From IMG/VR virus record IMGVR_UViG_3300043568_000922, positions 1-39,415 of that record: a DNA stretch of 39,415 nt. One strand, written 5' to 3'. This document shows, in pieces, positions 2,834 to 17,670 of the stretch. The notes under the pieces are model-generated. The model saw only the letters and a list, made by a program, of their open reading frames with translations, was not told the DNA's origin and searched no databases. Source of the DNA: a virus. Both the position numbers and the translations under genes were made by a program. Position 1 is the first letter of the stretch; each line of letters opens with the position of its first letter.

Positions 2834-3631
2834 TTATATATTTCTAGGAGGAATTTTTCTTTGTTCTACTGCTATAAGCGTACCTTTGTGATCTGCATGA
2901 ATGTCTTTTCTTACCCAAGTCATACCATAAGTTTCTTCTAAATTTTCTAGTCCAACCCTCTTTTTTAATCTTTCAGCCATAGACTGAAAAGTTGGATCGT
3001 CACTCAAGTTTAAATATGAGTTATGATACCATGGTAGGTCATAGAATGCAGGAGAATTTACTAAAAGCATTCCTGCTGTATTCCAATGCTCTTCAATTCT
3101 TGGATTTTCAGATACAACAGTTCCCCTTAGTCCATAAACTGGAACATCTGCACTAACAATTGGATGATCTATTTCAAATAATTTTTCAATAATTTCAGCA
3201 GTTAAAATTATATCTGAATCTACATACAAGATTGCATCATAATTTACAATACCAACATTTTCTTCTGTACAATCCTCTCCCCAATGATGTCCAGAAGTTT
3301 TTCTAAATCTTTGTGCAAACTCTCTAATTAAATTTCTACCAGTTTCAATTCTTATCCATCTGTTTCCTGAATTTACTTGAGCCTCCATATCATTAATTGT
3401 ATATGTCCAGAAATCTCCATTGACTTCTTTTAGTGCATTTAAAACTCTTTCGAAAGGCTCCAAACCTCTGGTATCAAGTTCTAATGCAGTGAAGAATTTT
3501 GCATTCGGGAATTTTTCAATTATTTGTTTTGAGTTTTCTAGCCAAGACATCTCTTCACCCATGTCTGCTTTCCATCCCACAAGCGGTGTACCAATAACAA
3601 AGTGTTTGTTATAATCTATCTCTTTAAACAT
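2834..3631 (-). CDS. GT-A-type glycosyltransferase
   Basis: This 265-aa protein is a probable glycosyltransferase that moves a sugar from a nucleotide donor. The segment YDAILYVDSDI (about 131-141) carries a DSD motif (138-140), the metal- and nucleotide-binding DxD of GT-A folds, after a typical hydrophobic strand. The upstream residues IGTPLVGW and KFFTALELD fit the first Rossmann strands. Its start overlaps the end of the GDPD-like gene by 8 bases, with AAGGAG upstream of the ATG. It is the last gene of the five-gene glycan cassette. The acceptor could be a phage structural protein, a host wall polymer or a secreted glycan. Donor and acceptor cannot be read from the sequence. Confidence 0.65.
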   Translation of the reverse strand: MFKEIDYNKHFVIGTPLVGWKADMGEEMSWLENSKQIIEKFPNAKFFTALELDTRGLEPFERVLNALKEVNGDFWTYTINDMEAQVNSGNRWIRIETGRNLIREFAQRFRKTSGHHWGEDCTEENVGIVNYDAILYVDSDIILTAEIIEKLFEIDHPIVSADVPVYGLRGTVVSENPRIEEHWNTAGMLLVNSPAFYDLPWYHNSYLNLSDDPTFQSMAERLKKRVGLENLEETYGMTWVRKDIHADHKGTLIAVEQRKIPPRNI

Positions 3632-4085
3632 TGTGACTACTCCTTATGTATTCAATTATATCTGAGCAATAGCCATAATAGTCTAAATCTTTCATTTCTT
3701 CTACAGTTCTAAATAGTTCTGGGAGAACTGCAATTGTTTGTGAGTTTGCCTTTGCAACTCCTGGGAATGCCCAAACATACCCCTTACTAGTTAAAGTATA
3801 ATCATCTGCCTTATGAAAAAAACAGTTTAAGTTTTCATCAAGAGCATATTTTAAAGACTCTTTATCTTTGCAATGAACCCACAAACTTTCTCTACATTCA
3901 TCAATAAAGTTATCGTCTATTAAATATTGAGGCTTTTCGTGACCTAAAAATATCTGTCCGTCTTTATGACGAAGATCAACCTCTACATCAAAACCTTTGT
4001 CTATAGCTTGATAAATATATACTGGACTGTTTTCAAGATCATGATGCTTTCCAGTTAAGTTACCACGATGGGATATATAAATCAT
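3624..4085 (-). CDS. Glycerophosphodiesterase-like (PI-PLC fold) protein
   Basis: The 153-aa protein has the start of a glycerophosphodiester phosphodiesterase barrel: SHRGN (H6, R7), the metal-ligand pair in DVEVDLR (E35, D37) and the histidine of FLGHE (H49). These match the catalytic HRG, ExD and H positions of the family. At 153 residues it is well short of a typical 240-300-residue GDPD. It resembles the small GDPD-like proteins found inside bacterial polysaccharide clusters, where the activity is often undefined. It sits between a methyltransferase gene (4-base overlap) and a glycosyltransferase gene (8-base overlap). A role in making or trimming a glycerol-phosphate-type decoration is plausible but inferred. 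Confidence 0.65.
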   Translation of the reverse strand: MIYISHRGNLTGKHHDLENSPVYIYQAIDKGFDVEVDLRHKDGQIFLGHEKPQYLIDDNFIDECRESLWVHCKDKESLKYALDENLNCFFHKADDYTLTSKGYVWAFPGVAKANSQTIAVLPELFRTVEEMKDLDYYGYCSDIIEYIRSSHNV

Positions 4086-4789
4086 TTTTCAACCTGAACC
4101 CAAATCCAATTTTTATGATTGTCTCCTGGACCAGTTGGTCTAATGTCAGACTTATAATTTTTAAATGCAATTTTGTTAACTAAATCATCAATTAACTCAT
4201 CTTCATTAGTAACGCTAACATCTGAATGACCATTTGTACTTGCAGCATCATAAAGATTATCATAATATCCAGCCGTTGGAATACCTTCTTTTCCACCAAA
4301 TCCCATCTGGAAGCAAAGCTTTCCACCATCTTTAAGAACACGGTAAGCTTCTTTAAGAATGTTAAATCTAACATCGTGAACACAAATATGCTGGAAACAA
4401 ATTACTGCAAACATTACATCATAAACATCATCTTCAATCATTGATAGATTATCTCCAGAAGTTACATACAGGTTTGGAATTTCTATATTATTATGCTGTA
4501 AATTAACTCTAGCCTTTTCTAGGTTAACATCTGAAATGTCTACTCCATCAATTCTTTCAAACTTGCTATTAAATTTTACAATGTTTCTTCCTGGACCACA
4601 TCCATAATCTAGTGCTACTAAGCCAGAGGTGTCAAAATCTTTAAAAAGAAACTCATCATAATCTTTCCAATTATTATGAGCATCATATGATCCAACTACT
4701 GGATCTCTAAAATCCAAAGACCACTTAGCAGCATATTCATCATAGTAATCGTTTTGCATTTTTAAATAGTCTTTCTTACCTTTTTCCAT
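4082..4789 (-). CDS. SAM-dependent class I methyltransferase
   Basis: The 235-aa protein has the class I methyltransferase fold. Motif I is DYGCGPG (61-67) after a hydrophobic strand. The acidic end of strand 2 is DGVDIS (81-86). A motif IV-like region, DVMFAVICFQHI, sits near 125-135, followed by LKEAYRVLKDGGKLCFQ, the usual post-motif strand of small-molecule methyltransferases. This family (Methyltransf_11-like) usually methylates small molecules or sugars rather than DNA. The surrounding glycan genes suggest a sugar or glycan substrate. The start ATG at 4789 has AAGGAG seven bases upstream and shares one base with the stop of the bifunctional HAD-nucleotidyltransferase gene. Confidence 0.75.
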   Translation of the reverse strand: MEKGKKDYLKMQNDYYDEYAAKWSLDFRDPVVGSYDAHNNWKDYDEFLFKDFDTSGLVALDYGCGPGRNIVKFNSKFERIDGVDISDVNLEKARVNLQHNNIEIPNLYVTSGDNLSMIEDDVYDVMFAVICFQHICVHDVRFNILKEAYRVLKDGGKLCFQMGFGGKEGIPTAGYYDNLYDAASTNGHSDVSVTNEDELIDDLVNKIAFKNYKSDIRPTGPGDNHKNWIWVQVEK

Positions 4790-6168
4790 TATATCTCCTT
4801 GTTATTTTCTAAAAAGTAATTTAAGTCTTCAGGGGTTCCAATTCCCCACATCTTATCAATAGTTTTCAATCTTACCTTTTTTCCATCTTCAATTGCTTCA
4901 TTAAAAACAGGGCAAACATAAAATTCATTATTAGTTCTAATGTTTTTATCAATCATTTGATTTGCATACTTAACGTAATCAGACCCGTGTTTCCAGTAGT
5001 ATATACCAACTGTTGCATTATCAGAAATTGGATTCTTTTCTGCTACCTCTGAAACAAAACCATCTTCCCCAACTTTTGCAAAAGACCACTTTGGATGAGT
5101 TGCTTTAAACGAAAGTATTCCACCGTCTATATTGCTAGCACCAAACTCATACAGTGCTTCGTTGGAGTCCCATTCCACATACTGATCAGAGTTAGCCATT
5201 AGAAGTGGCTTTTCGTTATTGATAAGCTCTTGAGCAAGTAAGGTTGTACAAGCAGCACCCTCAGTCATTCCATCAACAATAACTATGTCGCAGTCTGGAG
5301 CAATAAGGTTAAGAAGTTGCTTAAGATTATATTTTTCATAATGATCTTTTTGTACTAAGAAGATATAGTGTGCATCAATGTTAAGATTTTCAACAATTAC
5401 CTGGATCATTGGCTTACCATGAACTTCAATCAATGGCTTTGGAAATGTATAACCTGCTTGTGAAAATCTTGAACCTGCACCAGCCATAGGTATAAGGACA
5501 TTCATCTCTTTATTTTTCCAAGGCACTTGTCCAGTTCTCTCTTTCTTTTCAAATTTTTCTATAAACTCTATGAATATTGTATCATTAAGATCATAGGAAT
5601 CTTTAACTGGGTACAGGTTTGCTCCAGAATTCAAAGCTCCTTGCCTCCCAATGTGAGAGTCTTCTATAATTATTGTATCTTTTGGAAATGCATCTAATGC
5701 CACCATGCACTTCCAGTACATTTCTGGGTGTGGCTTTGGATGCCAAACATCCTCATTGCTAACAATGTAATCTACTAAATGAAGCACCTGGATTCCATGC
5801 AAAGACTTTATGATAGTCTCTCTAATACTATTAGATGCTATGGCAATTTTCCAACCTTCAGATTTTAGATACATCATAATATTTATAGCTTTAGTATTTA
5901 CTGGAAGATTTTCAAGCATTAAGAAAGTTTCTTCTTGCTTATCTTTCCATACTTTATTATGAGAGTCTTGTGGCAGCCCTTTTTCTTGAGTAAGCATAGA
6001 AAGTTTTTTCTTAGTATTTAAACCATCATATTTTGACAGATGCTCTTGATATGATATTTTATATTTAGGATCAACTTTTTCTAATGCATTGTTAAGAGCT
6101 TTGTAGTGTAAATCTTTTGAATCAATTAGCACACCATCTAAATCAAATATAACTAACTTATTACTCAT
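4789..6168 (-). CDS. Bifunctional HAD phosphatase / sugar-phosphate nucleotidyltransferase
   Basis: The 459-aa protein is a fusion. Residues 1-215 are a HAD phosphatase: motif I is FDLDGVLID (D9, D11), motif II is IASNS near 110, a KPHPEMY lysine follows near 144, and motif IV is IIIEDSHIG near 166-174. Residues 222-459 form a nucleotidyltransferase that opens with MNVLIPMAGAGSRF and then FPKPLIEVHGKPM, the G-x-G-[S/T]-R...PKP signature of sugar-1-phosphate NTP transferases. Such fusions occur in capsule and teichoic-acid-like clusters, where one half makes an activated NDP-sugar or NDP-polyol and the other removes a phosphate. The precise nucleotide and sugar are unknown. It overlaps both neighbours by 1-4 bases. 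Confidence 0.8.
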   Translation of the reverse strand: MSNKLVIFDLDGVLIDSKDLHYKALNNALEKVDPKYKISYQEHLSKYDGLNTKKKLSMLTQEKGLPQDSHNKVWKDKQEETFLMLENLPVNTKAINIMMYLKSEGWKIAIASNSIRETIIKSLHGIQVLHLVDYIVSNEDVWHPKPHPEMYWKCMVALDAFPKDTIIIEDSHIGRQGALNSGANLYPVKDSYDLNDTIFIEFIEKFEKKERTGQVPWKNKEMNVLIPMAGAGSRFSQAGYTFPKPLIEVHGKPMIQVIVENLNIDAHYIFLVQKDHYEKYNLKQLLNLIAPDCDIVIVDGMTEGAACTTLLAQELINNEKPLLMANSDQYVEWDSNEALYEFGASNIDGGILSFKATHPKWSFAKVGEDGFVSEVAEKNPISDNATVGIYYWKHGSDYVKYANQMIDKNIRTNNEFYVCPVFNEAIEDGKKVRLKTIDKMWGIGTPEDLNYFLENNKEI

Positions 6169-6812
6169 CTTTGTGGACCTGCATGTCTATGCCACTTGTT
6201 ATGTCTAACAATACTTTTACCATTGCACTTCATAACATACTTATCTCTTACCCTGTAAGACCATTCAACATCTTCTTCTTCATTCCATCCACGACTTTCA
6301 TCAAGTGGTTCTTCAATCATTACATGACGCTTGACCATAAAGAATCCACCAGAGATGTACATATACTGAGTTTGAGACCAATCGTTGTAGTCTAAAGACC
6401 AGGCTCTTCCGTGACCTGGCTTATCCCAAAGAGACCAGTCCATAGGATTTCTTGATCCAGTAATTAAATATTGTGGGCAAGAACAAATTTCCCAATCAGT
6501 TCCAAATTCAACAAAGTTTTTATACCAGTCTTTATCAAAGATATGATAGTCATGCATTAAAACTATATTGTCATACCTAGCTTCTTTTACAAGTATATTC
6601 TTTTTTCTTGTAATCCATCTTTCTTTAACTGATTCATCAAAGTCAATCTTTCTAACATCTTCTCCATCAATACCAGAGCTGTCTCCACCACCAACAAATA
6701 GTATTTCATATTCTGGGATATTAAGATTACGAATGCTCTCTATAATCTCTTGAAGCCTTTGCTTATCTTCATATACAGTTATGATTCCAAAGGTCCACTG
6801 AATGTCATTCAT
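6165..6812 (-). CDS. Family 2-like glycosyltransferase
   Basis: The 215-aa protein resembles GT2 glycosyltransferases. An N-terminal WTFGIITVYEDKQRLQEII strand-helix is followed by EYEILFVGGGDSSGID (35-50) and a DxD-like position in IVLMHDYHIFD (about 83-93). The acceptor-side segment GGFFMVKRHVM is followed by an acidic GWNEEEDVEWSYR motif (about 175-188), comparable to the ED motif that supplies the GT2 catalytic base. It starts inside the last codons of the FtsZ-like gene (8-base overlap) and overlaps the HAD-nucleotidyltransferase start by 4 bases, so the FtsZ and glycan genes are probably on one transcript. Confidence 0.7.
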   Translation of the reverse strand: MNDIQWTFGIITVYEDKQRLQEIIESIRNLNIPEYEILFVGGGDSSGIDGEDVRKIDFDESVKERWITRKKNILVKEARYDNIVLMHDYHIFDKDWYKNFVEFGTDWEICSCPQYLITGSRNPMDWSLWDKPGHGRAWSLDYNDWSQTQYMYISGGFFMVKRHVMIEEPLDESRGWNEEEDVEWSYRVRDKYVMKCNGKSIVRHNKWHRHAGPQR

Positions 6813-7740
6813 TTATAAAGCCTGTCGCTATAACAGTTACTAAAATACCATCCTCAAGATCTTCATCTAAGACTGTTCCAAATATAATGTCAGCGTCTTC
6901 ATGGGCTTTTTCAGAAACAAGTGATGCGATCTTATTAACTTCTTGCATTTTAATTTGTCCAGATGATGCAATTGAAATCAAAACTCCAGTTGCACCATTA
7001 AGATTTACGTCTAAAATTGGACTGGTTATTGCTTCATTACCTGCAATCTCTGCACGATCCTCGCCATCTGCATACCCAATCCCCATAAAGGCTGCTCCAG
7101 CATTTTTCATAACTCTTTTTATATCTGCAAAGTCAATGTTGATTTGACCAGGGGTTGTAATTAAATCTGACACTCCTGCTACAGCTTTTAATAAAACATT
7201 GTCAGCTTCTTTAAAGGCTTCTTCCATAGAAATATCTGGATCAAGCATAGAAATGAGATTTTCATTTGGAATAACAATTAGTGTGTCAACTTCCTTACTA
7301 AAATTATTAATTCCCTCTAAGGCATTATTCATACGCTTCTTGCCCTCAAACCCAAATGGGGTAGTTACAACGCCTACAGTAAGGGCTCCAGCCTTTTTAG
7401 CACAGTTGGCAACAATAGGTGCAGACCCAGTTCCAGTTCCGCCACCCATTCCAGCAGTAACAAAAACAACATCTGCTCCTGTAACAACTTCAGAAATTTC
7501 ATTTATGCTATCTTTTGCTGAAAGTCTTCCAATATTTGGATCTGCTCCAGCACCAAGACCACCAGTTCTATCTCTTCCAATATCAATTTTAACATCTGCC
7601 AAACTTGGCATTAATGCTTGAACGTCAGTATTGACTGCAATGAATTCAACTCCAGATAGTCCAGACAAGATCATGCTATCTACAGCGTTTATTCCACCGC
7701 CACCACAACCAACTACTTTTATATCTATTAAAGAACTCAC
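6805..7740 (-). CDS. ftsZ-like: FtsZ homologue, GTPase core only
   Basis: The 311-aa protein is a bona fide bacterial-type FtsZ, not a distant phage tubulin. It has the nucleotide loop GCGGGGINAV (11-20), FIAVNTD (33-39), the tubulin signature GGGTGTG (99-105), RMNNALEGI near the ribose/base pocket, and the T7 synergy loop NIDFADIK (201-208) with D203 and D206. GTP binding and polymerisation-coupled hydrolysis therefore look intact. It stops immediately after VTVIATGF, where the cellular core ends. The disordered linker and the conserved C-terminal peptide that binds FtsA, SepF, ZipA or FtsW are absent. The start is GTG at 7740, six bases after a TATAAT box. It may co-polymerise with host FtsZ and disturb division, or serve a phage-specific filament; both ideas are inference. 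Confidence 0.92.
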   Translation of the reverse strand: MSSLIDIKVVGCGGGGINAVDSMILSGLSGVEFIAVNTDVQALMPSLADVKIDIGRDRTGGLGAGADPNIGRLSAKDSINEISEVVTGADVVFVTAGMGGGTGTGSAPIVANCAKKAGALTVGVVTTPFGFEGKKRMNNALEGINNFSKEVDTLIVIPNENLISMLDPDISMEEAFKEADNVLLKAVAGVSDLITTPGQINIDFADIKRVMKNAGAAFMGIGYADGEDRAEIAGNEAITSPILDVNLNGATGVLISIASSGQIKMQEVNKIASLVSEKAHEDADIIFGTVLDEDLEDGILVTVIATGFINE

Positions 7741-7746
7741 TATTCA

Positions 7747-7752
7747 ATTATA
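7747..7752 (-). promoter_or_regulatory. -10 box for a leaderless ftsZ-like transcript
   Basis: On the minus strand, TATAAT is followed by six bases and then the GTG start of the FtsZ homologue. Initiation seven bases after the -10 would begin the mRNA on the start codon itself. An AAGG overlaps this region but sits about 12 bases from the start, too far for a good Shine-Dalgarno. No clear -35 is seen. Confidence 0.45.
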
Positions 7753-10357: not shown

Positions 10358-10612
10358 TTATAGCTGTCTTTCATCATTATACTTGATATCTAGAATTGGG
10401 TCAAGTGAGACATTCGCACCTAACGACTCTAAGATATTTTTTACTTTCGTCATATACTGTATACAACGAAGCCTTTCATTATCATTTAAATGCCTCCAAT
10501 GACTTTCATAAAATTGGATAGCAAGGAAATGATCATAGTCTGCAATAGTTATTTGAAAATCTTTTGGTGGCTTAACAGATCTAACAGCATGTCTCATCTT
10601 ATCTGTATACAT
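10358..10612 (-). CDS. Hypothetical phage protein (84 aa)
   Basis: The ATG overlaps the stop codon of the WhiB-like gene (TAATG), so translation is coupled. The 84-aa product is soluble and basic at the front (MYTDKMRHAVRSVKPPKDFQ). A helical middle (HLNDNERLRCIQYMTKVKNI) follows, and the C-terminal part reads SLDPILDIKYNDERQL. No catalytic motif is visible. Its last codons contain the promoter of the SSB gene. Co-expression with WhiB suggests an early or regulatory function, but nothing more can be said. Confidence 0.6.
   Translation of the reverse strand: MYTDKMRHAVRSVKPPKDFQITIADYDHFLAIQFYESHWRHLNDNERLRCIQYMTKVKNILESLGANVSLDPILDIKYNDERQL
10376..10404 (-). promoter_or_regulatory. Promoter for the SSB gene
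   Basis: On the minus strand, TTGACC (10404-10399) and TATAAT (10381-10376) are separated by exactly 17 bases. The expected start near 10369 leaves a leader of about 20 bases that contains AAGGAG before the SSB ATG at 10348. Confidence 0.7.
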
Positions 10613-10893
10613 TACTTAGCCTCCATTGTTATTCCAGACCAAATACTAAACCAGTCAGTCTTTTCTTTATGACTATTAAATTCTTTAGATATTTTTCCGC
10701 CCTCCAAATAAACGCCACCCCAAACACCCCACTCAGCATTGCTAACTCCGTATGCTAAGCACTGTCTTTGTGCTGGACACTTTATACACAAAAGATCTAC
10801 TTTTTTGGAAACTTCTGGATTTTCTTCATATTGATCAAAGAAAAGATTTGTATCCATATTAAGGCATAAAGCTTTTTCATCGAACTTGTACAT
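10612..10893 (-). CDS. whiB-like: WhiB-family Fe-S transcription regulator
   Basis: The 93-aa protein carries the four-cysteine iron-sulfur motif C10, C36, C39 and C45 (C-x25-C-x2-C-x5-C). Next comes the beta-turn signature WGVWGGVYL (55-63), which contacts the sigma factor in WhiB proteins. The basic C-terminal DNA-binding tail is modest (KISKEFNSHKEK). WhiB proteins occur only in Actinobacteria and their phages, so this is strong evidence for an actinobacterial host. In known phages such proteins interfere with host WhiB2 or block superinfection; whether that applies here is not known. AAGGAAGGGCG precedes the ATG, and the gene overlaps the upstream one by 17 bases. Confidence 0.93.
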   Translation of the reverse strand: MYKFDEKALCLNMDTNLFFDQYEENPEVSKKVDLLCIKCPAQRQCLAYGVSNAEWGVWGGVYLEGGKISKEFNSHKEKTDWFSIWSGITMEAK

Positions 10894-12143: not shown

Positions 12144-13463
12144 TTATTTATAAAAAGAAAATGGTGAATCTGTCCAAGTGTCATCTGATTTGGATGCTCT
12201 TGCATTTTGGATTGCTTTCCATTTTTGTGTTGACCAAGCAAACCCAGAGTCTCCACCCCAAAGTAGCCAGGCTATCTTTCCATTTGATGGACGTTCTGCA
12301 TTGTCCCAATCCTTACCCTGCTTGTCTACTTCGTGTCTTGAAAAAAATGAATACATTCTAGCAACTGTTTCAGGGCTAAGATCTCTGCCATTAACTAGAT
12401 CACGAGCACGAGCAACTCCTACTGCAGTTCCACCTCTACCAAACTTTGCTCTAAGTTCAAGACCTCTTCTAGCATTGTTAGCCATAGATTCAGTTGGTTT
12501 TAAATCAATGTCCGAAACATCTCTTTTTTCTACACTAAAATCTTTTCTTGCAGACTTTGGCTTCCATTCTTCTGGAAGTAAATCGGTTCTGTTAAGTGCT
12601 TCAGCTCTTCTTATGATGTGATTACGAGCCCTTGCGTAATTTGATGCACGACCAACTGCTTGGACTGCATTACTTAAATCTGCTGCAGTAACAATTGGAA
12701 AAGATCCGTCAGGCAAAGCCATATCTCTACGAGCTAACATCTGTCTTTCTTTGTCAGAGTAGTCTTTTTTACCCATTGAATGTTGTGGACAATTTTTATC
12801 ATCACAATCTTCTATTGAGTCAGCTCTTGTATTTGGAACATCATCATTTCCAATAACATCATCATGGTGTGATTTTGAAGTTGACACCCTTAGAGTTTCT
12901 ACCCTGTGACCAACCAAGGTTTCTGTTGGCTTTCCGTCTCTATAAATTCTAATAAGTGCTGCTGGATTATCTGGAGTTCCTGTAATTGTAAAATCAGAAT
13001 TAGGAACATTAATAGAACCATTTCTAACAACTCTTACAACTTTTCCTCTTGCAGTTCCACCGCTAGAATTCCAAGAAACCATTTGACCAACTCTAACTGA
13101 ATCTGCTTTTGACATTTCAGGAATCATTTCTTCAAACTCTTCTCCAGAATTTTTCATATCAGAATTTACATAGCCATCTGGTATTACTGCAAGTCTGCAA
13201 GCACCTTCTTCTTCAATTTGTTGTGAGATAATTGCACAAGCAACTGCAGATTTATGAAGTGCACAGTTTCCACACTTAACACCAATAGAAGCATTTTGAT
13301 TTGTAGAACCATCTTCATAACCAATCCAGATACCTTCTGACTGATCTAGTGGTCCAAGCTCTTCTGTTAATTTTAATAATGAATCTGCAAAGGCTTTTTC
13401 ATCTTCTGAAAGCATGTTGTAAAGGGGTTCGCCTTCCCATTCTGCTGATTTAATGACATCCAT
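12144..13463 (-). CDS. Multidomain phage protein: 4-Cys, Tudor-like and two small phage domains
   Basis: The 439-aa protein is a chain of small modules. At 64-89 is a four-cysteine cluster (C64, C67, C76, C89) reminiscent of high-potential iron-sulfur or zinc modules. At about 122-192, VGQMVSWNSSGGTARGKVVRV and the following strands match the DUF2945 Tudor-like fold. At about 225-290, MALPDGSFPIVTAADLSNAV and an Arg/Ala helix match DUF6582-like sequences. At about 360-415, FFSRHEVDK...GKIAWLLWGGDSGFAW is a motif that recurs in unrelated phage and plasmid proteins. No catalytic residues are evident. Phage proteins with these modules are sometimes near head genes, but the role is unknown. The ATG lies seven bases after a TATAAT box. 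Confidence 0.6.
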   Translation of the reverse strand: MDVIKSAEWEGEPLYNMLSEDEKAFADSLLKLTEELGPLDQSEGIWIGYEDGSTNQNASIGVKCGNCALHKSAVACAIISQQIEEEGACRLAVIPDGYVNSDMKNSGEEFEEMIPEMSKADSVRVGQMVSWNSSGGTARGKVVRVVRNGSINVPNSDFTITGTPDNPAALIRIYRDGKPTETLVGHRVETLRVSTSKSHHDDVIGNDDVPNTRADSIEDCDDKNCPQHSMGKKDYSDKERQMLARRDMALPDGSFPIVTAADLSNAVQAVGRASNYARARNHIIRRAEALNRTDLLPEEWKPKSARKDFSVEKRDVSDIDLKPTESMANNARRGLELRAKFGRGGTAVGVARARDLVNGRDLSPETVARMYSFFSRHEVDKQGKDWDNAERPSNGKIAWLLWGGDSGFAWSTQKWKAIQNARASKSDDTWTDSPFSFYK

Positions 13464-13478: not shown

Positions 13479-13838
13479 TTATCTTTGGTCATAATGTGCA
13501 AGAAGTGTTTCAAGAAAAAATCTTTCATCATCAGTAAAAGTGTTAATATTTTCTTTTATAGATTTTACCTGTTCTGGAGTAACTCCAACAATTGTTTGTC
13601 CTTCAGTAAATACTATGTCTATAACATCTTTCATCCACAACTGACTAGCCATTTCTCCAACGGCTTCATAATGTGCATAATAAAGTTCTGGATAAAGTTC
13701 TTTACATTTTGAAGTAACTTTATATGTAAACTGATCTGATATAGAATCATACCCCATAATTTCCATAGCACCTATTTCAATAAGATACTCAATCATTTCT
13801 GATAATTCTTCGCTACTCATTTCTTCATTATCTTCCAT
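13479..13838 (-). CDS. Hypothetical acidic protein (119 aa)
   Basis: The 119-aa protein is acidic and mostly helical. It begins [20 protein letters not shown], then has GYDSISDQFTYKVTSKCKEL, which resembles a small winged-helix wing region. It ends DDERFFLETLLAHYDQR. The arrangement of helices and a short beta hairpin could be a winged-helix fold, but no DNA-binding motif is certain. The gene overlaps the end of the IMPDH/GMPR gene by 11 bases and has AAAGGAG about ten bases before the ATG. Confidence 0.5.
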   Translation of the reverse strand: MEDNEEMSSEELSEMIEYLIEIGAMEIMGYDSISDQFTYKVTSKCKELYPELYYAHYEAVGEMASQLWMKDVIDIVFTEGQTIVGVTPEQVKSIKENINTFTDDERFFLETLLAHYDQR

Positions 13839-14892
13839 GAGGCAACGACTCCTTTACAGTTAATGGTGACACCCTTGTGTACATGGATTCTTGATATAAA
13901 TTACAAAGAAAGTCTACTCCAGTATAAGAGCATCCACTTCCAATACCACCTTTAATATCTTTAAAAATATCTTTCACAGATCCCTTGTATGGAATCATTG
14001 TAGAGACTCCTTCTGCAACTGCAATATCTTTATCTTTATTAGCTTCTTTACTAGCCATTCCTCTAAATGCTTTAAATTTTTTATCACCTTTAAAATGTAA
14101 AGACCCTGGAGATTCGTCAGTGCCAGCCAACATTGATCCAAGCATTACGGAATCTGCTCCTGCTGCGAATGCTTTAATTATGTCTCCAGTATTTCTAATT
14201 CCACCATCTGCAACAATTCCAGCCTTTAAGCCAAACTTATCTTTTGCTTCTCGAACGTTTATAATTGAAGATAGTGTTGGAATACCATGACCAGATACGA
14301 GTCTCGTGGTACACATGCTACCGCCACCAATACCAACTCTGATAGAATCAGCACCTGCAACATCTAAAGCAATATACCCCTCTATTGTTGCAACATTACC
14401 AGCCATAATATGAACACTATCTCCTACAATATTTTTTAATCTTACAACTGCATCAATTGCCATTTTACTATGACCATTAGCAGTATCAATTAAAAGCATT
14501 GATGCTCCTGATTTAATTAACTTATCAACATGCTCTTCAACAAAAGTAGTTGACAATGCTGCACCAACAGGAAGTCCAAGATAATTATGGCTATGAACTT
14601 CTTCAACCATTTTTATTTGCTTTTTTGCTGACATAAATCTATGAATAATTCCAATACCACCAGATTCAGCAATTGCAATTGCCATATCTTTTTCACAAAC
14701 AGTGTCCATAGGGGATGCAATTACTGGAAAGTCTAGACAAGAACTTCCACCAATATGCATTTTTAGATCTACAAGTGATCTGCTTACAACTTCTGAGTAT
14801 TGTGGAACCATAAGAATATCGTCAAAACAAATATAGTTATTTGCTAAATATTCTTTCACAAACTTAGCCATTCTGGATGGCTTAAAGTCCAT
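13828..14892 (-). CDS. IMP dehydrogenase / GMP reductase family enzyme without CBS domains
   Basis: The 354-aa protein is a TIM-barrel enzyme of guanine nucleotide metabolism. It has [13 protein letters not shown] at the front, [13 protein letters not shown], and then [11 protein letters not shown] running straight on, with no CBS pair where bacterial IMPDH has one. [20 protein letters not shown] and the catalytic-cysteine loop [11 protein letters not shown] (C184) follow, then [21 protein letters not shown], the phosphate-binding region. IMPDH oxidises IMP to XMP, whereas GMP reductase runs GMP to IMP. The ending LTVKESLPH looks more IMPDH-like, but the missing CBS pair and length also fit GMP reductase. 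It may start at 14892 or at the internal ATG 14871. Confidence 0.85.
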
Positions 14893-15885: not shown

Positions 15886-17670
15886 CTAAATTAAATTAAA
15901 ATTCATAAGATACTCTTTGATATCTTCTGTCATCTCAGGTTTAGATTTTACCATTTTACTATCATCCTTGTCAACTTTGGGACGAGATTGATAGGTATGA
16001 ATTTCTACTTCCTGAATTTTTTCTCTTCTTGTATGGCTGATTGCATTATATACAGATCCACACATAGCGTCTGCAAGGTCCTTAGACTTCTTTCTAGGGT
16101 GGTCTACCCTATTATTATTCATAATTCTAAGTTCCTGCATTTCCTCAAGTAATAAATCTATTTGAGGTAAAACTATTCTTTCTTCATAAACAAGCATAGA
16201 AAGATCTTCATAGTGTTTCTTAGCCACAGATAGTGTTTCTGTTTTTATGCCCACACTACTTAGGTCTCTTTGAATATCAAAAGAGTTCCATCGGTCAAAA
16301 GTTACTAAGCCAAGATTAAATCCAAGTCTTCTTAAATTAATAATCCAATTTTTCACTTCTGATAAATCTACTGGACCTTCTTTTTTAGGTTCCCAGTAAA
16401 CAATTGCATCAACCACAACAAAGGGAACAATTTGCTGGTAATCATTAAACGATTGTAGACTTACCCACTTATCAATGTGAGCAATAGACACGGCACACTT
16501 ATCGTGCTTTTGTGCCAGGTCAGCGTGGACATAGTATGTTACTTCAGGATCTGGTTGGAATGATTCTTCTATTCTTTTACCAACATCAATAGGGTTATGC
16601 TTTTTAAATGCCATTCCGAGCTTTTCTCTATTTTTAAAGAAAGCATCAGAGGATGTAGTTGGCATACAGGCAAAACGCATTAGTGCATCTGGCATATCTG
16701 TAAAGAAAGCTAATTTAAAATCTTCAATCTTTCTTGTAGGATTAATCTCCCAAGTTGGTCTTTTAAGTGCAAAGACTCCTGGAAGTTTATAGGAATTGAT
16801 ATGATCTTCGTCCCACTCCACAGTAAACTTATTTTGTGGATCATCTTCTGATAGTGCTGGGTTTAAAATAAACTCGTGCGATCTTACAATAGTTTCTTTT
16901 TCTGCAATAACATCTTCATACCTTGTTGAAATAAAGTCACCTTTAAAACGAGGGAATGAAAGAAGAACTACCTTGCCAAAGTCTGGAAAGCGAGAGTCAA
17001 CAGATCCACGGAATGCTTTATAAATATTGTCAGCAGTTTTGGCGTGATCATTTCCACTTGCAGACTCCATTGCAAATCCAGAAATCTCATCAAGAATTGC
17101 AAGCATTAAGTTTAGACCTTCAGCAGATTCTCTTTCTGAGTGACCAGAATATACGGTAATAGCTTTATCAAATTCAATGCTATCAATTTTTGGTGGAGAA
17201 AACTTTCCTGCAAACCAGGGAGACCCCTCTATCTTACTTCTAAATCCTTTAAAGAAAACATTCTTTGCTTGTTGAGCATTGATAGCAACATTCATAATAT
17301 CAATAGCATCATTAGATGGCTTACCAAAATATCTTGACGGGTCTTTTAAACACAATAGCTTGTAAACTAAATAAGAACAACCAACTGTAGATGTGTAATC
17401 TTTTCCGCTACCTTTTCCAAGTTGCATTATAATTTCACTCTTAGTATATTTTTTATAATGTTCTTTACCTGCAGATTCACCCATAAATCTAATCAAATCT
17501 TTTTCTTGATAAATTTGGCTCATGCACTCAACAAGAGTATACTGATACTCTGACAACTGTGGTTGATTTAAATATTTCTCACCTGTAACAAATGTTACAA
17601 CATCTACTGGGGTTTCTGAAAATGGGGACTCATCAAGAGCCTCCATAAAGTCACTAATATCAATTGTCAA
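15886..17670 (-). CDS. terL: Terminase large subunit
   Basis: The 594-aa protein is the DNA-packaging motor ATPase-nuclease. Walker A is GKGSGKD (85-91), with Lys as its key residue. Walker B is LMLAILDEIS (about 187-196). The C-terminal nuclease half shows acidic positions in YVHADLAQKHDKCAVSIA, LVTFDRWNSFD and SKDLADAMCG, as expected of the RNase H-like domain. The start is uncertain: TTG at 17670 is the first possible codon after an in-frame stop and overlaps the small subunit by 11 bases, while an ATG is available at 17646. It follows the small subunit, but the portal and head genes are not next to it. Confidence 0.9.
   Translation of the reverse strand: MTIDISDFMEALDESPFSETPVDVVTFVTGEKYLNQPQLSEYQYTLVECMSQIYQEKDLIRFMGESAGKEHYKKYTKSEIIMQLGKGSGKDYTSTVGCSYLVYKLLCLKDPSRYFGKPSNDAIDIMNVAINAQQAKNVFFKGFRSKIEGSPWFAGKFSPPKIDSIEFDKAITVYSGHSERESAEGLNLMLAILDEISGFAMESASGNDHAKTADNIYKAFRGSVDSRFPDFGKVVLLSFPRFKGDFISTRYEDVIAEKETIVRSHEFILNPALSEDDPQNKFTVEWDEDHINSYKLPGVFALKRPTWEINPTRKIEDFKLAFFTDMPDALMRFACMPTTSSDAFFKNREKLGMAFKKHNPIDVGKRIEESFQPDPEVTYYVHADLAQKHDKCAVSIAHIDKWVSLQSFNDYQQIVPFVVVDAIVYWEPKKEGPVDLSEVKNWIINLRRLGFNLGLVTFDRWNSFDIQRDLSSVGIKTETLSVAKKHYEDLSMLVYEERIVLPQIDLLLEEMQELRIMNNNRVDHPRKKSKDLADAMCGSVYNAISHTRREKIQEVEIHTYQSRPKVDKDDSKMVKSKPEMTEDIKEYLMNFNLI

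Follow-up and report, generated by a model that had tools for sequence, protein, structure and literature searches.

A family of phage FtsZ proteins that end at the GTPase core and may stall the division of probable actinobacterial hosts

The phage tubulins known so far, PhuZ and TubZ, are remote from FtsZ. PhuZ (phrog_4733) is a tubulin-superfamily GTPase of jumbo phages, and TubZ, which occurs in plasmids and phages of Clostridium and Bacillus, has an FtsZ/tubulin fold that works outside the host divisome. In FtsZ itself, the T7 loop and helix H10 lie on the face that meets the GTP site of the next subunit. An FtsZ paralog without the C-terminal interaction peptide, FtsZm, is found in magnetosome-forming cells, and its interaction with full-length FtsZ is stated in the title of Muller 2014 (via PMC7676999). 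Chloroplast FtsZ1 is likewise an FtsZ core that lacks the anchor motif and acts beside full-length FtsZ (PMC5471200). Host division can also be blocked via FtsZ by T7 Gp0.4 and lambda Kil (PMC13423816), which is the action proposed below for a phage FtsZ; these are, however, small unrelated peptides, whereas the phage protein described here is FtsZ itself. Our literature search, with most subscription journals outside its coverage, found no description of a phage-borne bacterial-type FtsZ or of such a truncation, and the main freshwater actinophage papers that it listed contained zero mentions of FtsZ in their full text.

The gene under study lies in a window of 39,415 nucleotides (the whole stretch of DNA that was analysed, IMG/VR record IMGVR_UViG_3300043568_000922; Table 1). 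Its product is similar to PhuZ in being a phage-encoded GTPase of the tubulin superfamily and to TubZ in its fold, but unlike TubZ it has the core of a true FtsZ: in addition to an end-to-end match to Tubulin (PF00091, E 6e-46), the FtsZ_C domain (PF12327) was matched with E 9e-30 over profile positions 1-94 of 95. In the PDB search, residues 9-312 of M. tuberculosis FtsZ (6ym9 / 1rlu) aligned to the window protein without gaps, so that the two share a 304-residue core of about 60% identity with its GTP and T7 motifs. An earlier AlphaFold2 model based on few sequences was poorer (pLDDT 76) and was replaced by a model from a 49-sequence alignment (mean pLDDT 89.8), whose fold agreed with that of 6ym9 at a TM of 0.96. 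Residues N201, D203, F204 and D206 of the T7 loop were invariant in phage and cellular rows alike. The protein thus belongs to the FtsZ core family by its GTPase domain, FtsZ_C domain, T7 loop and predicted fold, and the sequence-only reading, which had described the tubulin signature, the GTP pocket and the T7 loop as intact, was confirmed by sequence, Pfam and the predicted fold. Tail features of divisome FtsZ are lacking: unlike the M. tuberculosis protein, the phage copy has no linker and no C-terminal peptide, it has phage-specific S7-8 and pre-H10 loops, and it is phage-borne.

Table 1. Positions of the features discussed, numbered along the window
Feature	Position	Strand	Basis or remark
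Tail-less FtsZ gene, 311 aa / 311 codons	6805..7740	minus	GTG start; ends ...VTVIATGF-INE-TGA
Tubulin signature GGGTGTG, residues 99-105	7426..7446	minus	The same in every aligned phage copy
T7 synergy loop (NIDFADIK, residues 201-208); both catalytic Asp present	7117..7140	minus	Alignment
TATAAT -10 box, 6 nt ahead of GTG	7747..7752	minus	Sequence; conserved in clade-A relatives
GT2-type glycosyltransferase, first cassette gene 3' of the FtsZ slot	6165..6812	minus	Pfam Glycos_transf_2; synteny
Overlap of FtsZ stop and next-gene start, 8 nt	6805..6812	minus	Sequence
Cassette remainder	2834..6168	minus	Pfam; siblings without FtsZ have the cassette too
HAD-nucleotidyltransferase fusion	4789-6168	minus	Pfam
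Methyltransferase	4082-4789	minus	Pfam
153-aa protein of the cassette	3624-4085	minus	
265-aa protein of the cassette	2834-3631	minus	
WhiB-like protein	10612..10893	minus	Pfam Whib; actinobacterial host marker
Large terminase subunit (TerL)	15886..17670	minus	54-57% identical to ~130-kb Streptomyces phages, e.g. Yaboi, StarPlatinum

The distance from PhuZ was as large as the sequence-only reading had claimed, since identity of the window protein reached up to 61% with cellular FtsZ versus 12-19% with viral tubulin-like proteins. In the BFVD search all viral matches were distant, the significant ones having 10-19% identity, PhuZ included, and the PHROG match to PhuZ was weak (E 2e-5). PhuZ also differs in fold (TM of about 0.6) and in its tubulin-like C-terminal tail, which the phage FtsZ does not have, and it belongs to jumbo phages; the FtsZ-bearing records collected here, which may be incomplete, are of about 100 kb or less.

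Relatives of the window FtsZ were gathered by three scans of IMG/VR and one scan using a neighbouring gene, and about 70 contigs were recovered, with 44 distinct complete phage proteins that were 64-100% identical to the window FtsZ. The window copy terminates three residues beyond the last core strand and all 44 distinct phage proteins stop 2-5 residues past the core, as expected from the earlier proposal that the stop falls exactly at the end of the GTPase core. The C-terminal linker is absent from every one of the 44, and the C-terminal peptide, which binds SepF, FtsA and FtsW, is absent from the phage FtsZ as well; cellular FtsZ tails spanned 36-173 residues in the 140 loci compared. FtsZ1 and FtsZm, by contrast, are cell- or organelle-encoded partners and do not share this ending just past the core. 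A frameshift or assembly error concealing a normal tail, which had been named as one point on which the proposal could fail, was ruled out because the 44 relatives end alike in front of different downstream genes (GT2, a methyltransferase-like gene or others), with the early stop kept where the downstream gene differs in contigs L019, L030, L033, L202 and L207. The truncation is therefore exact and evolutionarily fixed.

Some records with FtsZ do not belong to this family. L043/L319 was set aside as a member, its protein being a full-length bacterial-type FtsZ (52% identity, 373 aa, tail IPTFLRKK) beside a prophage-like stretch; in L043 (IMGVR_UViG_3300043544_000415) this gene adjoins tyrosine-recombinase-like and phage terminase/portal-like genes, and perhaps a prophage was inserted there next to the host ftsZ. 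In the annotated phage collection, 7 of the 25 FtsZ matches were examined and had tails of 70-131 residues, all in unverified records. The full-length bacterial-type ftsZ with a normal tail seen in MT835570, MT835756, OR849061 and other records of that collection is probably contamination.

In the phylogeny against cellular and phage FtsZ, a comparison suggested by the sequence-only reading, the phage proteins formed one clade (SH-aLRT 100, stem of 0.95 changes/site) that sits among Actinomycetota FtsZ, its sister group being unresolved in the tree. This shows a single actinobacterial-like origin. A recent acquisition from a present-day host was rejected, as neither the best 80 genome_contigs loci nor a set of 397 Actinomycetota genomes contained a cellular FtsZ above 61% identity. 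The median dN/dS across 78 pairs was 0.13 (Nei-Gojobori), which shows that the phage FtsZ is under purifying selection, and of the 99 positions with at least 98% invariance among actinobacterial FtsZ the phage proteins retain 90. Conservation was uneven along the core: the T4 and T7 loops had 80-84% identity between phage and host-type FtsZ, and identity to the core actinobacterial FtsZ, phage versus Bacillota, was 0.26 versus 0.74 in loop 242-249, 0.13 versus 0.52 in loop 260-264, and 0.35 versus 0.47 in helix H10 (265-278). In these three parts of the C-terminal subdomain the phage clade has thus drifted further from core Actinomycetota FtsZ than Bacillota FtsZ has.

The gene was also said to have its own start signal, and we found the TATAAT box 5-7 nt ahead of the start codon (ATG or GTG) in 30/30 distinct alleles of the window's clade (clade A), where it persists even if the upstream gene is another one. 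The window copy has no Shine-Dalgarno sequence. Because of the position of the box so close to the start (rule of PMC4633059), the FtsZ mRNA in this clade is predicted to be probably leaderless. In a second phage FtsZ clade, about 64% identical, the box is missing, and the start codon of several of the genes overlaps the stop of a small nuclease-like gene (TAATG). Two other gene starts in the window, at 13463 and 27857, have TATAAT 7 nt before ATG and are further candidates for leaderless mRNA.

Phage-type genes flank FtsZ in dozens of contigs, and a sibling record of 101.7 kb, about 96% identical to the window across 26 kb, is the largest FtsZ-bearing record, although it may not be a complete genome. 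Besides TerL, a tail protein matched the same group of Streptomyces phages, more weakly; the search of the annotated phage collection returned no matching FtsZ from any Streptomyces phage. WhiB was present in all nine FtsZ-bearing records tested, and among 14 control genomes it was found in Corynebacterium only. The WhiB protein, the TerL related to Streptomyces phages and the FtsZ tree together make actinobacterial hosts probable, as had been assumed before. Many of the source datasets of the relatives are presumably freshwater, judging from their IMG numbers. SepF was not found in the FtsZ-bearing records, and hence there is no phage anchor of the SepF kind in them.

The FtsZ locus was compared with that of sibling phages that have no FtsZ. 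In these, GT2 starts 5-7 nt after the nuclease-like gene, and in the FtsZ-bearing phages an insert of about 930 nt sits exactly between the two. In L257 and L262 the same slot is filled by an unrelated open gene resembling a glycosyltransferase; this 782-nt gap had been considered as a degenerate FtsZ, which was rejected. Since the site is empty in siblings and can hold another gene, FtsZ is accessory cargo in a hotspot upstream of GT2. The neighbours of FtsZ are small unknown genes, a nuclease-like gene or sugar enzymes. In many relatives the GT2 reading frame directly follows the TGA stop of FtsZ, and the 8-nt overlap in the window suggests a probable translational coupling of FtsZ and GT2. 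Several phage FtsZ genes, however, run into genes other than GT2, and the cassette occurs without FtsZ or with other cargo. Thus, of the earlier suggestion that FtsZ leads into a glycan cassette and is linked to it, the position just upstream of GT2 stands, whereas a functional link is not supported.

The cassette itself varies. The HAD phosphatase and nucleotidyltransferase form one protein in the window, and L033 has a separate nucleotidyltransferase-like gene at this place; in L007, L029, L225 and L252 the methyltransferase is replaced by an unrelated methyltransferase-like gene of about 200 aa. Near the cassette end, the proteins encoded at 652-2193 and 2255-2761 have signal-like N-termini and no Pfam match, and one of them bears a long P-E-P-T-P repeat stretch.

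The tail, which ties FtsZ to the membrane and to its partners, is always absent from the phage protein, and the protein therefore probably interferes with the host division ring. As for the way in which this could happen, we consider it most likely, though no better than an even chance, that an active, tail-less subunit enters the host Z-ring, dilutes its membrane and divisome tethers, and so stalls division. An assembly-competent core without linker or C-terminal peptide would be translated from a leaderless mRNA and would enter host FtsZ filaments via the conserved GTP/T7 interface. Because each phage subunit would bring no tail, the filaments would no longer be tethered to SepF or other membrane anchors, nor would they recruit septal wall synthesis; the weakened Z-ring would cause the infected cell to cease division, and cell volume and wall synthesis would be kept for phage production. 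This mechanism is supported by the predicted fold, the fixed truncation, the low dN/dS, the retained invariant sites, the conserved T4 and T7 loops, the single clade among Actinomycetota and the lack of SepF in the FtsZ-bearing records, and a poisoning of host filaments appears compatible with the anatomy of the protein, i.e. the intact GTP pocket and T7 loop and the missing tail, under purifying selection. Precedents are Gp0.4, as a phage protein targeting FtsZ (PMC13423816), and the tail-less FtsZ1, which co-assembles with chloroplast FtsZ2 and alters its filaments (PMC5471200). On the other hand, a simple poison needs no full GTPase chemistry, yet the GTPase residues are retained, and the divergence of loops 242-249 and 260-264 and of H10 means that co-assembly with host FtsZ could be reduced. 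A more specific version, in which host FtsZ was domesticated as a weapon, the anchor-stripped subunit being a natural dominant-negative division inhibitor and its altered H10 face perhaps making it an asymmetric filament cap that attaches to host filaments with one end only, we regard as possible but doubtful.

Slightly less probable still, and in our view unlikely, is that the phage FtsZ builds its own soluble filaments apart from the Z-ring, for example positioning phage DNA or capsids as PhuZ or TubZ would. The diverged loop before H10 keeps a separate filament compatible with the data: this loop and the H10 face are phage-specific and would favour self over host contacts, the GTP site and T7 loop are intact under purifying selection, and the purification and structure solution of tail-less FtsZ cores is routine, as for SaFtsZ 12-316. 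However, the genes noticed near FtsZ include no partner of the TubR or phage-nucleus type, the similarity to PhuZ is low, the records, although possibly incomplete, are of about 100 kb or less, and absence of the gene from close siblings would be odd for a needed spindle. Another reading is a decoy, in which the core would absorb FtsZ-binding factors of the host or of rival phages, such as division inhibitors or an FtsZ-sensing defence like CapRel-Gp0.4-FtsZ. The catalytic residues would be unneeded for this, yet they are invariant, and we know of no FtsZ-directed defence or inhibitor in these actinobacterial hosts; although the core is the surface bound by such factors and deletion of the FtsZ linker leaves CapRel activation unaffected (PMC13423816), and although the accessory, patchy distribution of FtsZ would suit a decoy, we find it improbable.

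Equally improbable, in our judgement, is a tuning of the host ring after the manner of chloroplast FtsZ1, with filament turnover changed and division or septal wall synthesis sustained. FtsZ1, without the C-terminal interaction sequence, shapes FtsZ2 filaments and promotes ring-like structures (PMC5471200), and the GTPase motifs are conserved in the phage protein, but FtsZ1 co-evolved with its partner inside one organelle, whereas here the gain would be the phage's, and why a lytic phage would need to promote division is not obvious. That the truncation is an artefact, or the gene a contaminating bacterial ftsZ, has a negligible chance: phage databases do contain apparent contaminants of this kind, but for this family the phage-type surroundings in dozens of contigs, including that of the 101.7-kb sibling, the 44 distinct truncated alleles and the empty-site comparison rule it out.

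A phage family of true FtsZ, cut nearly to the crystallographers' core, would be a natural experiment on the role of the FtsZ tail, and would give a testable case, in apparent actinobacterial phages, of a virus that turns a host cytoskeletal protein against the host's own ring. If the protein instead formed its own filaments, phages would have made a new cytoskeleton out of a cell-division protein. The WhiB-like protein of the window is a possible second regulator of septation, by analogy with phage TM4, whose WhiB lowers whiB2 expression and, when overexpressed, mimics whiB2 loss with filamentous growth and aberrant septation (PMC6282962); from this effect we infer that phages with both WhiB and FtsZ may hit division at two levels. 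The window also encodes, at 13828-14892, an enzyme of the IMPDH/GMP reductase family (354 aa; Pfam reports no CBS domain), which could change the GTP pool that FtsZ uses.
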